Source: Acidobacteriota bacterium (GTDB lineage Bacteria; Acidobacteriota; Holophagae; Acanthopleuribacterales; Acanthopleuribacteraceae). From it: a stretch of 64,000 bases of DNA. The position numbers were made by a program, and so were the translations under genes. Positions 8,309 to 14,178 of this stretch are shown in pieces (position 1 is the stretch's first letter; every line of letters starts with the position of its first letter). Location: positions 62,001-126,000 of the forward strand of contig JAGQSC010000009.1 of NCBI GenBank assembly GCA_020439745.1, in the 5' to 3' direction. Under the pieces are notes generated by a model that saw nothing but the letters and a program-made list of their open reading frames with translations, did not search any database and was not told the DNA's origin.

Positions 8309-8661
8309 GGTTGTGTGACGGGTCGACCCGAAGCCTTCCAAGCTTTGATGCCACCTGCCAAATCAAGCACATGTTTAAAACCTAGCTCTTTGAACACATC
8401 GAGGCTCCTGCCACTGCGGCCCCCACTGGCGCAGTAGATCAAATAGGTCTTGTCACGATCCAGTGCTTCGACCTTTTGTTTGAATTGGTCGTCACGGAAA
8501 TCGATCATCTGGGCATGCTCAATGTGACCCGACTGGTATTCGCCAGGAGTTCTTACATCGATAATGACCACGTCTTCGCCGATATGTTGCGCGAACTCCT
8601 CAGGCGAGATCGTTACTATTGTTACGTCCTGCACCAAAAACATCAGCATCAAACACATCAT
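8305..8661 (-). CDS. Rhodanese-like domain protein
   Basis: A single rhodanese domain of 118 residues. The substrate loop YCASGGRSG carries the catalytic Cys, so thiosulfate or persulfide sulfurtransferase activity is expected. Other family marks are IDVRTPGEYQSGHIEHA near residues 34-50 and the end motif LAGGIKAWKASG. The first 12 residues (MMCLMLMFLVQD) are hydrophobic but too short to be a clear signal peptide. The start overlaps the maf stop (ATGA) and has a strong GGAGGTGA ribosome site, so it is the last gene of the long minus-strand operon. Substrate unknown. Confidence 0.9.
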   Translation of the reverse strand: MMCLMLMFLVQDVTIVTISPEEFAQHIGEDVVIIDVRTPGEYQSGHIEHAQMIDFRDDQFKQKVEALDRDKTYLIYCASGGRSGRSLDVFKELGFKHVLDLAGGIKAWKASGRPVTQP

Positions 8662-9275
8662 CCGTCACCTCCCAAGCGCCAAAGTTTACTACATTGCGAT
8701 AACTCCTGGCGCAATTGCGTCATGGGCAGTCCCATCACATTTGTCTGCGACCCTTCAAGGCTGGCGACAATTTCAGGCGCGTCCTGGTAACCATAGCCGG
8801 CCGCCTTGTCCAGGGGATCCACGCGTTGGAACAGGTCACTGATCTCATCATCTGTCATGGTTCGCAGCACCACCGTCGTGGTGGAAACGAAATCGTGTTT
8901 TTGTGTTGTGGCCGGATGAAATAGCGCCACGCCGGTCAACACCTGATGTGGGTGTCCTCCTAACTCGCGCATGAACCTGGCTGCTTCGCTTAGATCCCGA
9001 GGCTTACCATACACCCGGGCATCCATCACCACCATGGTATCGGCAGCTAAGACCACAATTTCTGGGTCACTGAGATCGGCCTGACCTAATTTCGAAGTCA
9101 CATCGTTGCATTTTGCCCATGCATTGATCAGAACGACATCTCGAATGTCTGTTGCTGTGCCAGTCACTTCTTCAGCATCGCTGACGACGGTTCGAAAGGA
9201 GTAACCGTTCTGACGCATCAAGTCGCGTCGACGGGGCGATTGAGATGCCAATATGAACCTAAACGAGGACGCCAT
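8658..9275 (-). CDS. maf: Maf-like nucleoside triphosphate pyrophosphatase
   Basis: A 205-residue house-cleaning enzyme that hydrolyses non-canonical nucleotides (dTTP/UTP/m7GTP-type substrates) to monophosphates. Visible motifs: LASQSPRRRDLM at the N-terminus, the catalytic Asp in LAADTMVV, GKPRDLSEAARF, and the late DKAAGYGYQ...SLEGSQTNVMGLP block that marks the Maf fold. Length is normal. It starts three bases after the PdxJ-like gene and overlaps the rhodanese gene, so it is translationally coupled in the glmM operon. The exact subfamily (YhdE or YceF) is not resolved. Confidence 0.93.
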   Translation of the reverse strand: MASSFRFILASQSPRRRDLMRQNGYSFRTVVSDAEEVTGTATDIRDVVLINAWAKCNDVTSKLGQADLSDPEIVVLAADTMVVMDARVYGKPRDLSEAARFMRELGGHPHQVLTGVALFHPATTQKHDFVSTTTVVLRTMTDDEISDLFQRVDPLDKAAGYGYQDAPEIVASLEGSQTNVMGLPMTQLRQELSQCSKLWRLGGDG

Positions 9276-9278
9276 GGT

Positions 9279-10040
9279 TCAGTTTAATGGTTCGGGTATG
9301 TGGGGAGGGAACTGGCTGAGGAACGATGTCACTGTATGTCGAGTTCCCGTCATCAATGCTCGTGAAACCAAATCGTGACCAACCTGAATCCCCGCAACCC
9401 CATCCAAACGCGATAAGGCAGGGACCATATCAAAGCGAATAGCGTTCACCAAATGGGTTTCCAGTCCATATTTACTACTCAACTTGACTGCATCTCGCAC
9501 TTCTCGAAATAGCTTCTCGGAAAACCCCGAGACGGACGCGAGTGCATAGTCGCGAAGATTGATCATGAGGCCGTGAACTTCAAGTTTGGCAGCTGCACGG
9601 ATGTGGTCAAAAACAGGATCCACTAACAAGAAAACCCTCGTCGTCTTCTGGTCGATGCCACGAATGAGAGGCAACAATTGTCCAGCCAATAGAGACACAT
9701 CCAGTCCGTTTTCAGTAGCTATTTCGTCGCGTCTTTCTGCAGCCAACACGAGGTTTTGGGGCCTGAGCTCGTTGACGATGTGACTGATATCTTGATTGGG
9801 TGAGAGTTGCAAAAAAAACCGCGATTTGACCAATCTGGCAAGCAGGTGCACGTCGTAGTCCTGAATATGCCGCCGGTCCAATCGCAAATGAGCTTTGATC
9901 CCATTGGCTCCTGCCTGTTCGGCTTCCAGAGCGAAATGAACCGGGTCTGGCAAACGCGCTTTTCGCGTCTCTCGCAACATCGCCACCTGATCTACGGATA
10001 CAACCAACTGGGGGCGTTGATGCCCCGCTTGATCAACCAT
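9279..10040 (-). CDS. PdxJ-like TIM-barrel protein with substituted active site
   Basis: The 253 residues align along their whole length to pyridoxine 5'-phosphate synthase (PdxJ): LPDPVHFALEAEQAGANGI, HLRLDRRHI, LAAERRDEIATENGLDV, a late VGHDLVSRALMTG. From memory of the E. coli enzyme, key residues have changed: NIDH is SVDQ here (S15, D17, Q18), the Glu of NLEM is Gln (Q78), the Glu of IEIHTG is Asn with the TG lost (N161), and the His of NAGHG is replaced (N199). His51 and Arg53 remain. It therefore keeps the fold but probably not PNP synthesis; it could be a pseudoenzyme or a new enzyme. Start overlaps the glmM stop by 8 bases. Fold assignment is firm, function unknown. Confidence 0.8.
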   Translation of the reverse strand: MVDQAGHQRPQLVVSVDQVAMLRETRKARLPDPVHFALEAEQAGANGIKAHLRLDRRHIQDYDVHLLARLVKSRFFLQLSPNQDISHIVNELRPQNLVLAAERRDEIATENGLDVSLLAGQLLPLIRGIDQKTTRVFLLVDPVFDHIRAAAKLEVHGLMINLRDYALASVSGFSEKLFREVRDAVKLSSKYGLETHLVNAIRFDMVPALSRLDGVAGIQVGHDLVSRALMTGTRHTVTSFLSQFPPHIPEPLN

Positions 10041-11337
10041 TCAACACCTCCTTGGCAATCCGACAAAACGAATCCAACATGGGTTTGACCGTATCCATGT
10101 TTTTTGTTTCCGCAAAAACACGCAAAAGGGGTTCAGTACCTGAGTATCTCAATACCCATCGACCGGTTCCATCGAGAGCACGCTCTATGGTCATGGCCAG
10201 ATCTCGAAGTGCAGGTACATCATGGATGTCAGGTTTGTGGTTTACCTGGATATTTGATTCGTAGGTGGGATAGCTGGGGACCGCTTGTCGTGCCTTGACG
10301 ATCAGGTCGCTGTCCTGGGTCAGATGCCGTAGGATTCGAAGTGCCGCCAACAGTCCATCGCCGGCCGGCAGTAAATCCATCTGAATCAAATGTCCGCTGG
10401 GCTCCCCGCCAAACAGGGCACCCGTGGACCGCAAACCATCCAAGATATGTTGATCACCTACGGGTGTTCGCTCCAATGCGATATTCATCCCCCTCAAGGC
10501 ATCTTCCAATCCCTGTCCACTTAGCACGGTGCCGAACAAGCGATCCAGGTTCTTTCCTTCGCGTACATAGCATTGGGCCAGAATATACATCACGACATCT
10601 CCCGGCACACAGTTGCCATGGCGGTCCACAACCACAAGCCGATCAGCGTCGCCGTCAAAGGCAAACCCAACATCGGCCCGTTGCGATAGAACCTGTTCTG
10701 CTAGCTTGTGTGGATGAAGCGCACCCACGCCTGCGTTAATTCGTTCTCCGTCACGACTGCCCGCAAGATACTGGGCGTCTAACCCTATGGAGCGACAGAC
10801 CCGAGGTACCATATTCACGGCTGCGCCATGGGCTAGATCGAAAATCACCTTGAGACCGCCCCAATCCTGCTGAAAATGAGACCTGACAAGATCTTCGTAA
10901 TGCGTCGCTGAAACGGTCTGACAAGAAAGAGATGTTCGAGACGATATCTCTGGGGTCTGTGCGACTCTTTGCTCCCATTGCTTTGCTCGTTCTCGGGAAA
11001 TCTTGAAACCATCCGATCCGAAAAACTTTAACCCGTTATCCTTTGCCGGATTATGTGAAGCCGTAATCATGATACCTAAATCGGCATGGCGACTCTTTGT
11101 TTCGCAAGCAACTGCAGGTGTCGGTACGATTCCCAGATCCAACACATCGGCATCCTTTAACATGCCCAGGACCTGTTCACAGATTTGACGTCCACTTGGT
11201 CTGGTATCTCTGCCAACAACAACGACGCCAGCGCCCAAGTCCTCGTGTATGACTTGGCCAATACGGGTCAATGTGGATGCATCCAAAGGATACGTACCTG
11301 CAACGCCACGAATTCCATCAGTTCCAAATAGGCGCAT
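10033..11337 (-). CDS. glmM: Phosphoglucosamine mutase
   Basis: Interconverts glucosamine 6-phosphate and glucosamine 1-phosphate on the way to UDP-GlcNAc. All four family sites are present: N-terminal LFGTDGIRG, the phosphoserine loop ITASHNP (Ser about 94), the metal loop DGDADR, the sugar loop GEPSGH and the phosphate-binding RYSGTEPLLR. About 434 residues, as usual. The ATG at 11337 overlaps the ybbR stop as TGATG. The cdaA-ybbR-glmM order is the classical one in many bacteria, in which c-di-AMP synthesis and cell-wall precursor supply are linked; CdaA and GlmM are known to interact in Firmicutes. Confidence 0.97.
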   Translation of the reverse strand: MRLFGTDGIRGVAGTYPLDASTLTRIGQVIHEDLGAGVVVVGRDTRPSGRQICEQVLGMLKDADVLDLGIVPTPAVACETKSRHADLGIMITASHNPAKDNGLKFFGSDGFKISRERAKQWEQRVAQTPEISSRTSLSCQTVSATHYEDLVRSHFQQDWGGLKVIFDLAHGAAVNMVPRVCRSIGLDAQYLAGSRDGERINAGVGALHPHKLAEQVLSQRADVGFAFDGDADRLVVVDRHGNCVPGDVVMYILAQCYVREGKNLDRLFGTVLSGQGLEDALRGMNIALERTPVGDQHILDGLRSTGALFGGEPSGHLIQMDLLPAGDGLLAALRILRHLTQDSDLIVKARQAVPSYPTYESNIQVNHKPDIHDVPALRDLAMTIERALDGTGRWVLRYSGTEPLLRVFAETKNMDTVKPMLDSFCRIAKEVLNG

Positions 11338-12332
11338 CAATCCACAACCACGCCATCCGGTTCGAATTCGATTTGGAGCTGCTCCAAAACTGACCGCATC
11401 AAATTGAGATGATTCTCATCATCCCCTAACCCGATTTCCCATTTCACAGGCAGTTGGTCACCTTTCTTGAGTTCGCTGGTCATTTCAACAAACGGAACGA
11501 TCCAATTCTGCTCGAACAAAGCCAGCTGAGTCACAGGACCCGTAATCTTGGCCCTCACTTTGGCGGGCTTGATCTTAGTTTTGCTAAGGTCACCCTCTCC
11601 CCGAAGATCAAGCGCATAGCGATCCGGAATCGTTCGCGTTTCCACGATTTCTCGGATCTCAGCCACAAACGTGAGCTCGTTTAGGTTCAGAATGGCCGCA
11701 TCTGGTGGCACTTGCTTGGCGTAGTCAAAACGTACACGGCCCTTTAGATCACCCCGGGCTCCGTCAATATCAATGGGTTCTGCAACCAACATGCTCAGTT
11801 CATCCACCTGGGTCATCGGCCCTTCAATAACCGCCGTCTCAGGAATGGCTGCCAATGAAACCAATTCAAAGTCCAGATCCGGGTGACCTCGAGTACTCAA
11901 AACAATCTGCACGTTCTTTCTGATCTTGCGTTCCAATGTCAATCTTACAATTCTCGGCTGAATCTCTTCGACGTGAATGGAATCATGATCTTCCAAGATT
12001 GTCACGTTTTCAGGGCCCAACGGAATGTTGTAAGTCCCAGGGTCGTATTCCGCGAGATTCAATCGAACATCAATCTCATTTGCAGACAGTTCGCGCATCT
12101 CCGACTCACGTCCAGATAACGTCACAGATATCTGATAGAACTCAGAAGAGAGTTTCATGTTTTCTGGCACCCCCTGTTGTACCAAGGGCACATTGGAAAA
12201 GATGCGCACGACCCGGTTATCTTCTCCACCGACACGTCCAGAAAGGTTCACCCACATTAACAAGGCCATGAATAGCGAAGCCAAACGAAGCGTGTTCTTG
12301 GGAATTTTTCTGCCCGATCTCAAATGATCCAT
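11337..12332 (-). CDS. ybbR: YbbR-domain protein (CdaR-like)
   Basis: A 331-residue protein with one N-terminal membrane anchor (around residues 12-28, SLFMALLMWVNL), followed by a series of YbbR beta domains, recognisable by the repeated pattern of a strand pair ending in VTLSG, VTGP or IEGP turns (ISVTLSG, AVIEGPMTQV, AKITGPVTQL). In bacteria with CdaA, this protein binds and regulates the cyclase. It lies between cdaA (TAATG overlap) and glmM (TGATG overlap), so stoichiometric expression is likely. The symbol is used for the family; regulatory function here is inferred from gene order. Confidence 0.9.
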   Translation of the reverse strand: MDHLRSGRKIPKNTLRLASLFMALLMWVNLSGRVGGEDNRVVRIFSNVPLVQQGVPENMKLSSEFYQISVTLSGRESEMRELSANEIDVRLNLAEYDPGTYNIPLGPENVTILEDHDSIHVEEIQPRIVRLTLERKIRKNVQIVLSTRGHPDLDFELVSLAAIPETAVIEGPMTQVDELSMLVAEPIDIDGARGDLKGRVRFDYAKQVPPDAAILNLNELTFVAEIREIVETRTIPDRYALDLRGEGDLSKTKIKPAKVRAKITGPVTQLALFEQNWIVPFVEMTSELKKGDQLPVKWEIGLGDDENHLNLMRSVLEQLQIEFEPDGVVVD

Positions 12333-13264
12333 TACCCACCCGACCCAGACGCAGTCTTTGGATGCTCGACTTTTTCTGACTTGGGTTGGAGAGACTCACG
12401 CTTTCTGACTCGTTTGAACAGTGCCGTGCGCCATGGTTTTTTGGGTTCTTTCTGATCGACGTCTGGGTCTATGAGCTCGCGGTACATATTCTTCAGCTGT
12501 GCTATGGAATAGTCCTCCGGCACATAGGGCTCCCCTTCTTTCACAAACGTGATTCTACCGGTTTCCTCAGAGATGACGACTACAAGGCAGTCCGTTTCTT
12601 CTGCAATACCTAAGGCAGCCCTATGACGGGTGCCGAAATGTCGCGGCAAGTCCACGCGATTACTCAATGGCAGTACTGATCCGGCACTCGCAATCCTGCT
12701 GTGCGCCACTATAACGGCACCATCATGCAGGTTACTCTTGGTGTCAAATATGTTGAGCAAAAGATCAGAGGTGGGTAGTGCATCCAACTCCGTTCCTACC
12801 TCAATGTAGTTTTTGAGCCCCTCTGACTGCTCGAACACGATCAACCCGCCAATATTACGTTCGGCCATATACCGAACCGCAAAGAAAATCTGATCGAGAT
12901 CCGGATCGTTGGAGGTCTGGCTTAGACCAAAAAAGGGTCCTCGACCCAATGAAGATAAGACTTTTCTAATTTCATTCTCAAATAGCACAATGATGGCAAT
13001 GGGGATAATGGTAAAAAGCGAGCTGACGATGCTGCTCAAAACCGTCATTTTCAAAAAATCAGCCACCACTTGAATGACGAAAAGAGCCACGATTCCCATG
13101 GCCATTTGCATGGCCCGCGTGCCATGAATCAATTTCAACAGGTTGTAAATCAGCAACCACATGATGGCGATATCTAAAATATCCCAAAATTGGATCGATC
13201 GAAGTTGCAGACTGGCCTGCAAATATTCGAAAGACTCCCTGAAAAATTGCTGGATGGCATCCAT
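12332..13264 (-). CDS. cdaA: Diadenylate cyclase CdaA
   Basis: Membrane-bound DisA-N-type cyclase that makes c-di-AMP from two ATP. Three N-terminal transmembrane helices (about residues 27-45, 53-70, 75-95) precede the cyclase domain, which carries the DGA motif at 181-183 (SNLHDGA) and RHR at 213-215 (GTRHRAA), both needed for activity. A Lys/Arg-rich tail of some 40 residues follows. It heads the tight cdaA-ybbR-glmM group and lies 89 bases after folP, an arrangement shared with many Firmicutes and Acidobacteria. No c-di-AMP phosphodiesterase is in this window. Confidence 0.96.
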   Translation of the reverse strand: MDAIQQFFRESFEYLQASLQLRSIQFWDILDIAIMWLLIYNLLKLIHGTRAMQMAMGIVALFVIQVVADFLKMTVLSSIVSSLFTIIPIAIIVLFENEIRKVLSSLGRGPFFGLSQTSNDPDLDQIFFAVRYMAERNIGGLIVFEQSEGLKNYIEVGTELDALPTSDLLLNIFDTKSNLHDGAVIVAHSRIASAGSVLPLSNRVDLPRHFGTRHRAALGIAEETDCLVVVISEETGRITFVKEGEPYVPEDYSIAQLKNMYRELIDPDVDQKEPKKPWRTALFKRVRKRESLQPKSEKVEHPKTASGSGG

Positions 13265-13353: not shown

Positions 13354-14178
13354 CTATAACAATGCGCGTTTCAGCTTAACAGAGCGTTGCAAGAGCAATA
13401 CATTGTGAACCCGATGAACGCCAATCGTATTTTCATTGAGCAATATGCTTGCCATCGCACTAAAGCAGTCTCGTTCAGCGAGGGGCGCATCCAGCAGATG
13501 TCCCAGCCATGACTTGCGGCTCAATCCAATCAAGAGCGGACGGCCCAGTAATTCGAAAAGCACCTGGCAATTTCGCAGTAAGGTCAAATTTTGGTCGAGG
13601 GTCTTGCCAAACCCGATACCCGGATCGTACACAACGCGTTGCTCGTTTATTCCCGCATCAGCCAGCTTTGCTCGCACCCCAATCAAGCTGTCACACACGG
13701 CACTCAGAACGCCATCCGGGTAATCTGTGTGTTGTTGCATGGTTTTGGGCGGCGCCGGCATGTGCATGGCCACGTAGCCAACATCAGTCGCTTGCAAAAG
13801 CGGAATCATCTCATCACAGTTAAGCGTTGCGCTTACGTGGTTGATCACCGAGGCACCCAAACTGTGTGCTTCACGAGCCACATTGACACGTCGTGTGTCC
13901 ACGGAGATGGGCACAGCGCATCGCGATCTGAGCGCTTCAATCACGGGCAACACTCGATCTAACTCCTCAGATTCAGTCACCTCATCGGAACCAGGCCGGG
14001 TACTTTCACCACCCACATCGATCAGGTCGGCACCCTGTTCTGCCATTTCGAGACCGCGCCGCACAGCCGACTCCACCCCTTCATAACCATCCGAGAAGGA
14101 GTCTGGTGATGTATTGAGAATCCCCATGATCAGCGGGCTGTCAAAGACCCATTTTTCATCACCGCAATGCCAAATCAC
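13354..14178 (-). CDS. folP: Dihydropteroate synthase
   Basis: Condenses 6-hydroxymethyl-dihydropterin pyrophosphate with p-aminobenzoate in folate synthesis. The TIM-barrel signatures are clear: MGILNTSPDSFSDG and the second pterin-site motif DVGGESTRPG, plus ISVDTRR and VYDPGIGFGK further on, and the terminal GLSRKSW loop. 274 residues is standard. The only usable start is GTG at 14178. It lies between ftsH and cdaA, an order known from other phyla, with a decarboxylase gene wedged in on the other strand. folC in the same gene series provides the later step. Confidence 0.96.
   Translation of the reverse strand: MIWHCGDEKWVFDSPLIMGILNTSPDSFSDGYEGVESAVRRGLEMAEQGADLIDVGGESTRPGSDEVTESEELDRVLPVIEALRSRCAVPISVDTRRVNVAREAHSLGASVINHVSATLNCDEMIPLLQATDVGYVAMHMPAPPKTMQQHTDYPDGVLSAVCDSLIGVRAKLADAGINEQRVVYDPGIGFGKTLDQNLTLLRNCQVLFELLGRPLLIGLSRKSWLGHLLDAPLAERDCFSAMASILLNENTIGVHRVHNVLLLQRSVKLKRALL

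Follow-up and report, generated by a model that had tools for sequence, protein, structure and literature searches.

The 64,000-nucleotide stretch of acidobacterial DNA considered here, referred to below as the window, encodes a member of the pyridoxine phosphate (PNP) synthase family, PdxJ, in which most of the catalytic residues have been replaced and which is held under strong purifying selection. It belongs to the Acanthopleuribacteraceae, a family of marine, animal-associated bacteria in which the DXP-dependent PdxA and PdxJ route to vitamin B6 has been replaced by PdxST, a PLP synthase that works in one step, with PdxJ alone remaining from the older pathway. The interpretation that we favour, with moderate confidence, is that the protein is a conserved PdxJ pseudoenzyme that was left in place after the takeover by PdxST and that most likely acts as a non-catalytic binder of a phosphorylated metabolite. 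It would thus represent a natural case in which an unrelated enzyme has taken over a job and the old enzyme is still both kept and constrained.

The gene, an altered PdxJ homologue or pseudo-PNP synthase, lies at 9279..10040 on the minus strand, with an ATG start at 10040 and a stop at 9279, and encodes 253 amino acids. Its product matches PF03740 over its full length (residues 11-241) with 178.9 bits against a curated cut-off of 24.5, and solved PdxJ structures align with it at E values of 2e-37 to 6e-17, both of which agree with the original prediction that the whole chain aligns with PdxJ. An AlphaFold2 model, generated from a 26-sequence alignment of the window protein and proteins from the related loci, has a mean pLDDT of 92.5, and its top rows in Foldseek and VIA-align are all PdxJ (Z 31-34), the next fold scoring 19.5. 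After PdxJ itself, the next structural neighbours are TIM barrels that act on phospho-substrates. The likeness to E. coli PdxJ (PF03740; 1HO1 and 1M5W) encompasses the whole chain and the (beta/alpha)8 fold, with a VIA-align Z of 33.6 and an rmsd of 1.5 Å to 1ho1_A, as well as the shared residues D11, R20, H45, R47, H52, G215 and H216 and the location of the gene after glmM. The two proteins differ in that the window protein, which is 29% identical over the aligned region, lacks E72, H193, E153, N9, H12 and T102, has no PdxA partner in its genome, and scores under the cut-off of all six NCBIfam PdxJ equivalog models (for example 175 against 190, and 151 against 192.75). Judged by profile, fold and gene position, the open reading frame is a member of the PdxJ family by descent. 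Among named genomes its best match is found in a Holophagae metagenome-assembled genome (80% identity in the best segment), and a search of the genome contigs with the window protein alone returned a same-genus relative as the sole match.

The active site was compared with those of 58 other Acidobacteriota PdxJ proteins and of the E. coli enzyme. Of the catalytic residues annotated for PNP synthase (UniProt/HAMAP MF_00279), which are His45, Glu72, Glu153 and His193, only His45 is present in the window protein, the other three positions being occupied by Q78, M159 and N199. In this annotation H45, E72 and H193 serve as acid/base groups and E153 as the transition-state stabiliser, and the remaining compared residues are binding groups for either DXP or 3-amino-2-oxopropyl phosphate. 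In full, with the E. coli residue given first, the replacements are N9 to S15, H12 to Q18, E72 to Q78, T102 to A108, E153 to M159, H193 to N199 and G194 to A200; those kept are D11 (D17), R20 (R26), H45 (H51), R47 (R53), R50/R51, H52 (H58), G215 (G221) and H216 (H222). Most of the putative phosphate-binding set is found among the latter. Neither the 58 canonical Acidobacteriota proteins nor the E. coli enzyme show any variation at ten of the positions compared (N9, D11, H12, R20, H45, R47, E72, T102, E153 and H193). The replacements are not alignment shifts, because the flanking blocks align without gaps, and the possibility that the catalytic residues are present but displaced is thereby ruled out. 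The simultaneous changes reported in the original prediction are confirmed for N9S/H12Q, E72Q and H193N, but the glutamate of the IEIHTG block has become Met159 and not asparagine. That asparagine, Asn161, had been misread by two columns; it sits in the column of E. coli His155, where 58/58 canonical Acidobacteriota proteins also carry asparagine, making it the usual residue of the phylum.

Some of the conserved structural blocks do remain, as had also been claimed, but around half of the near-invariant PdxJ columns are changed. These changes affect 6/12 active-site columns and 22/47 of the others (Fisher p = 1), and this similarity indicates that the active site has not been singled out relative to the rest of the chain. 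A loss specific to the active site, beyond general divergence, is consequently unsupported for the Acanthopleuribacteraceae and is significant only for another family, f8 (p = 0.002). There are 19 residues that are invariant in Acanthopleuribacteraceae PdxJ and rare in the canonical protein, and no clustering of these on the pocket side was found (5/19 at strand ends, p = 0.78). Conservation alone does not point to a working pocket, since a scaffold role would be expected to look similar.

The changes are common to the whole family. A set of 61 related genomes was compared, made up of 7 from the Acanthopleuribacteraceae, in five genera, and 54 from two sister families. Every one of the seven Acanthopleuribacteraceae genomes encodes a single low-scoring PdxJ (147-183 bits) together with PdxS and without PdxA, whereas the sister families have a PdxJ of 249-339 bits in all cases except for one fragment (G016), with PdxA in 52/54 and PdxS in 0/54. 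Within the seven, glutamine at E72 is invariant, N9, H12, E153 and H193 are always lost, and H45 is retained in six and is glutamine in the other (G001); one member (G004) additionally lacks R20 and G215. The disappearance of E72, H193, N9 and H12 from all seven members exceeds chance. A separate family with the same substitutions in the same operon position, which the original prediction had proposed to look for, therefore exists in 7/7 genomes, and with no intact second pdxJ alongside it the suggestion that the barrel was kept while its chemistry was lost or renewed is borne out.

In the window's genome the altered gene is the only PdxJ, a second intact copy having been sought and not found, and neither this genome nor the others of the family (0/7) contains PdxA. 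It does contain an intact pair of PdxS directly followed by PdxT, and PdxST is predicted to supply its B6. As one of the family's genomes (G003) is a single 11.8-Mb contig, the genes missing there are unlikely to reflect an assembly gap. The absence of PdxA, the presence of PdxS and PdxT and the alteration of PdxJ together mean that the old B6 route has been replaced, and the pathway partner that would accompany a functional PNP synthase (EC 2.6.99.2) is absent. The original prediction had named, as evidence that would count against it, a genome that has no other PdxJ and makes B6 de novo; this is found in the letter, but not in the sense, because PdxST needs no PdxJ.

The altered gene stands in a series of minus-strand genes that includes folP (dihydropteroate synthase, 13354..14178, PF00809), the first gene of a conserved folP-cdaA-ybbR-glmM-pdxJ string, and continues with cdaA (diadenylate cyclase, 12332..13264, PF02457 and PF19293), ybbR (CdaA regulator-like, 11337..12332, PF07949) and glmM (phosphoglucosamine mutase, 10033..11340, Pfam PGM_PMM I-IV), which lies directly upstream. 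A maf-like gene (8658..9275, PF02545) lies directly downstream, as it does 3' of the altered gene in 7/7 Acanthopleuribacteraceae genomes. The coordinates reproduce the 8-base overlap with glmM and the adjacent maf noted in the original prediction. The idea that the position is in itself unusual, or hints at a link with c-di-AMP, is not supported. The glmM-pdxJ order is seen in most of the canonical relatives examined, the whole folP-cdaA-ybbR-glmM-pdxJ order is identical at seven loci (L083, L084, L085, L087, L089, L091 and L094), and canonical pdxJ directly follows glmM in the sister families and in other classes across the phylum, from which it follows that the altered gene is the orthologue left in place. 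Its location behind glmM, as in its relatives, is that of a PdxJ by descent. The operon position is ancestral and is in itself no evidence of a new c-di-AMP link, and nothing beyond this ancestral gene order ties the altered protein to the GlmM/CdaA system.

Evidence that the protein is still of use comes from its rate of evolution. All seven genomes, across the five genera, carry an open reading frame of full length. The closest testable pair (G005/G006) gives a dN/dS of 0.051 for the altered pdxJ, below each of the four other operon genes measured, whose values are 0.079 for CdaA, 0.121 for Maf, 0.136 for GlmM and 0.161 for YbbR. A more distant pair (G003/G005) gives 0.18, which is within the range of the neighbours. 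In the same-genus pair the synonymous sites are saturated and dN/dS does not apply, but protein identity is 76% for the altered PdxJ, 76% for CdaA, 62% for Maf and 53% for GlmM. On the evidence of the closest testable pair, the altered PdxJ is under strong purifying selection and is not a decaying relic, and continued selection of this kind implies that it very probably has another job now.

We infer the loss of activity, the binding of a ligand, the identity of that ligand and the role of the protein from sequence and predicted structure. The acquisition of PdxST would have freed PdxJ from catalytic duty, after which PdxA would have been lost and the PdxJ orthologue would have stayed behind glmM. 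The residues for condensation and proton transfer, N9, H12, E72, E153 and H193, have been lost, and with these gone the protein very probably cannot make pyridoxine phosphate. The barrel is retained, together with most of the groups by which the two former substrates were held at their phosphates (R20, R47, H52, G215 and H216, with D11 and H45), and since the kept residues are those of two former phosphate sites, they point towards a role in binding a phospho-ligand, although they are only suggestive of a non-catalytic one. Binding of a phosphorylated ligand would accordingly be the best-supported function, with a B6 phosphate vitamer plausibly the first candidate, and the protein might be used as a sensor, a buffer or a partner-binding subunit. 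Phosphate binding cannot be a property of every altered PdxJ protein, given that G004 has lost R20 and G215 and that f8 has lost nearly the whole pocket. With its catalytic motif lost, its fold conserved and its sequence under purifying selection, the window protein has the features of pseudoenzymes in general (PMC10211241), from which it differs in that the parent enzyme, and not a duplicate, has been converted in place.

The strong constraint on the altered PdxJ might also be explained by a new enzyme, in which the barrel and its phosphate clamps are kept and the pocket is rebuilt, from Q78, S80, R163, D164 and H196 together with H51 and D17, for some other reaction of a phospho-substrate. 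Replacement of E by Q and of H by N might leave room for a different reaction, H45 is kept in all but one member, Q78, S80, R163 and D164 are invariant in 7/7 but seldom or never seen in the canonical protein, H196 is likewise invariant in 7/7, and the nearest structural neighbours outside the family are themselves enzymes of phosphorylated compounds. The new invariant residues are not gathered at the pocket side, however, H45 is glutamine in G001, no new acid/base pair stands out as conserved, and the altered proteins of other families (f41, f54, f79 and f8) each differ at the former catalytic positions, so that we consider this explanation unlikely, though deserving of attention. Constraint that is spread over the whole chain and not confined to the pocket would also fit with a scaffold, namely a structural or regulatory partner of GlmM, CdaA or YbbR for which the pocket does not matter. 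In both B. subtilis and S. aureus, CdaA is inhibited through direct contact with GlmM (PMC8573169, PMC6368335), and the altered pdxJ comes immediately after glmM in 12/12 altered loci. That adjacency is nonetheless ancestral and shared with canonical PdxJ, such a partner would be dispensable in many families, as 90/104 genomes with PdxS have no PdxJ of any kind, and GlmM is less conserved than the altered PdxJ between the two same-genus genomes; a scaffold consequently strikes us as rather improbable.

Far less credible is a protein that is still a PNP synthase with a rearranged active site. The same fold and the largely kept residue sets of both phosphate sites would be compatible with it, but PdxA, which supplies the substrate, is absent in 7/7 genomes, PdxST makes the pathway unnecessary, and residues that are invariant in 58 canonical relatives have been lost together. 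We give just as little credence to a functionless relic whose reading frame has survived by chance or because its translation is coupled to that of glmM and maf. Loss of the pathway would explain relaxed selection on the catalytic residues, and many invariant columns have indeed gone, but such a relic would not be expected to stay full-length across five genera, to show a dN/dS of 0.05 in the close pair when decay would bring it near 1, to be conserved in the same-genus pair at the level of CdaA and above GlmM or Maf, or to retain a confidently predicted fold. A conserved pseudoenzyme that binds a phosphorylated metabolite remains the explanation that we prefer.

Similar proteins are found elsewhere in the phylum. 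In a survey of 396 Acidobacteriota genomes, PdxS scored over its cut-off in 104, of which 14 also have PdxJ; the genomes with PdxS and without PdxJ belong to many families. Inspection of the residues added four families with an altered PdxJ, namely f41 (G126), f54 (G161), f79 (G309) and f8 (G065 and G080), in each case encoded directly behind glmM. All five altered families lack N9, H12, E72 and H193. Families f41, f54 and f79 and the majority of the Acanthopleuribacteraceae retain D11, R20, H45, R47 and G215, most of which f8 does not; the residues at the former catalytic positions differ among f41, f54, f79 and f8. PdxS accompanies the altered protein in 12/12 genomes and PdxA is missing from 11/12, the exception being G080 of f8, whose PdxA-type protein may be either PdxA itself or a PdxA2-type protein. 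By contrast, PdxA is kept in 7/7 of the PdxS genomes whose PdxJ scores in the ordinary range. The shared losses give p = 4e-5 if the five families are taken as independent, and the shared pattern gives p ~0.001 for two class-level units (the Acanthopleuribacteraceae, and f41/f54/f79) if these are independent. Families f41, f54 and f79 belong to one class, alongside families with canonical PdxJ and others with PdxS and no PdxJ. In trees the altered PdxJ proteins group together, but on long branches. The GlmM tree does not place the Acanthopleuribacteraceae with f41/f54/f79; a PdxJ tree constrained to unite the Acanthopleuribacteraceae with their sister families is weakly rejected under these long-branch conditions (p-AU 0.013-0.034). 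It is conceivable, though we would not expect it, that PdxJ was converted several times independently in Acidobacteriota to a ligand-sensing pseudoenzyme, an earlier second role in B6-phosphate sensing or GlmM/CdaA control having outlived the pathway.

A comparative study of B6 pathways, which recognised the DXP-dependent route by pdxJ as its signature gene, reported ten genomes with both routes among 21,105, none named Acidobacteria, in which the DXP-dependent route was possibly incomplete (PMC9997740). The Acanthopleuribacteraceae resemble these dual-route genomes in that PdxJ is detected alongside PdxST; the survey, however, read PdxJ as an active route, whereas here it is altered and PdxA is missing. 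The signature gene is therefore present in genomes that use the other route, with its DXP chemistry apparently removed. The altered proteins of f41 and f79 (L072, L073) and, for one model, f54 (L075) pass the NCBIfam PdxJ equivalog cut-offs despite having no E72 or H193, and annotation pipelines would thus call a DXP-dependent pathway that is absent. No non-catalytic or pseudoenzyme PdxJ was found in the literature searched, most subscription journals lying outside it. A second function of PdxJ is a question that can be put directly to cultured species.

Three other arrangements were observed in the phylum. The altered PdxJ of f8 (L078, L079 and L083, L084) is of a different kind, with a pocket that has become basic, lysine replacing E72 and R47 and arginine replacing H193 and H216. 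It is encoded behind glmM in a class represented by two genomes, one of which still has the PdxA-type protein. Seven genomes combine PdxS and PdxA with an ordinary-scoring PdxJ (G121; G258 and G363 of f39; G292 and G362 of f12; G243 of f28; and G166 of f46; loci L088, L089, L094 and L097), and both B6 routes may be intact in these; the PdxJ residues are canonical in G258 and G363, the two that were inspected. Finally, a very divergent PdxJ of 209 bits in G068 (L076; L090, 8659-9387) retains H45, E72, E153 and H193, while D11 is replaced by N, H12 by K, R50 by E and H216 by Q. It has no glmM beside it, PdxA is present and PdxS was not found in that genome, and it may be an active PdxJ of a different type that was acquired by transfer.
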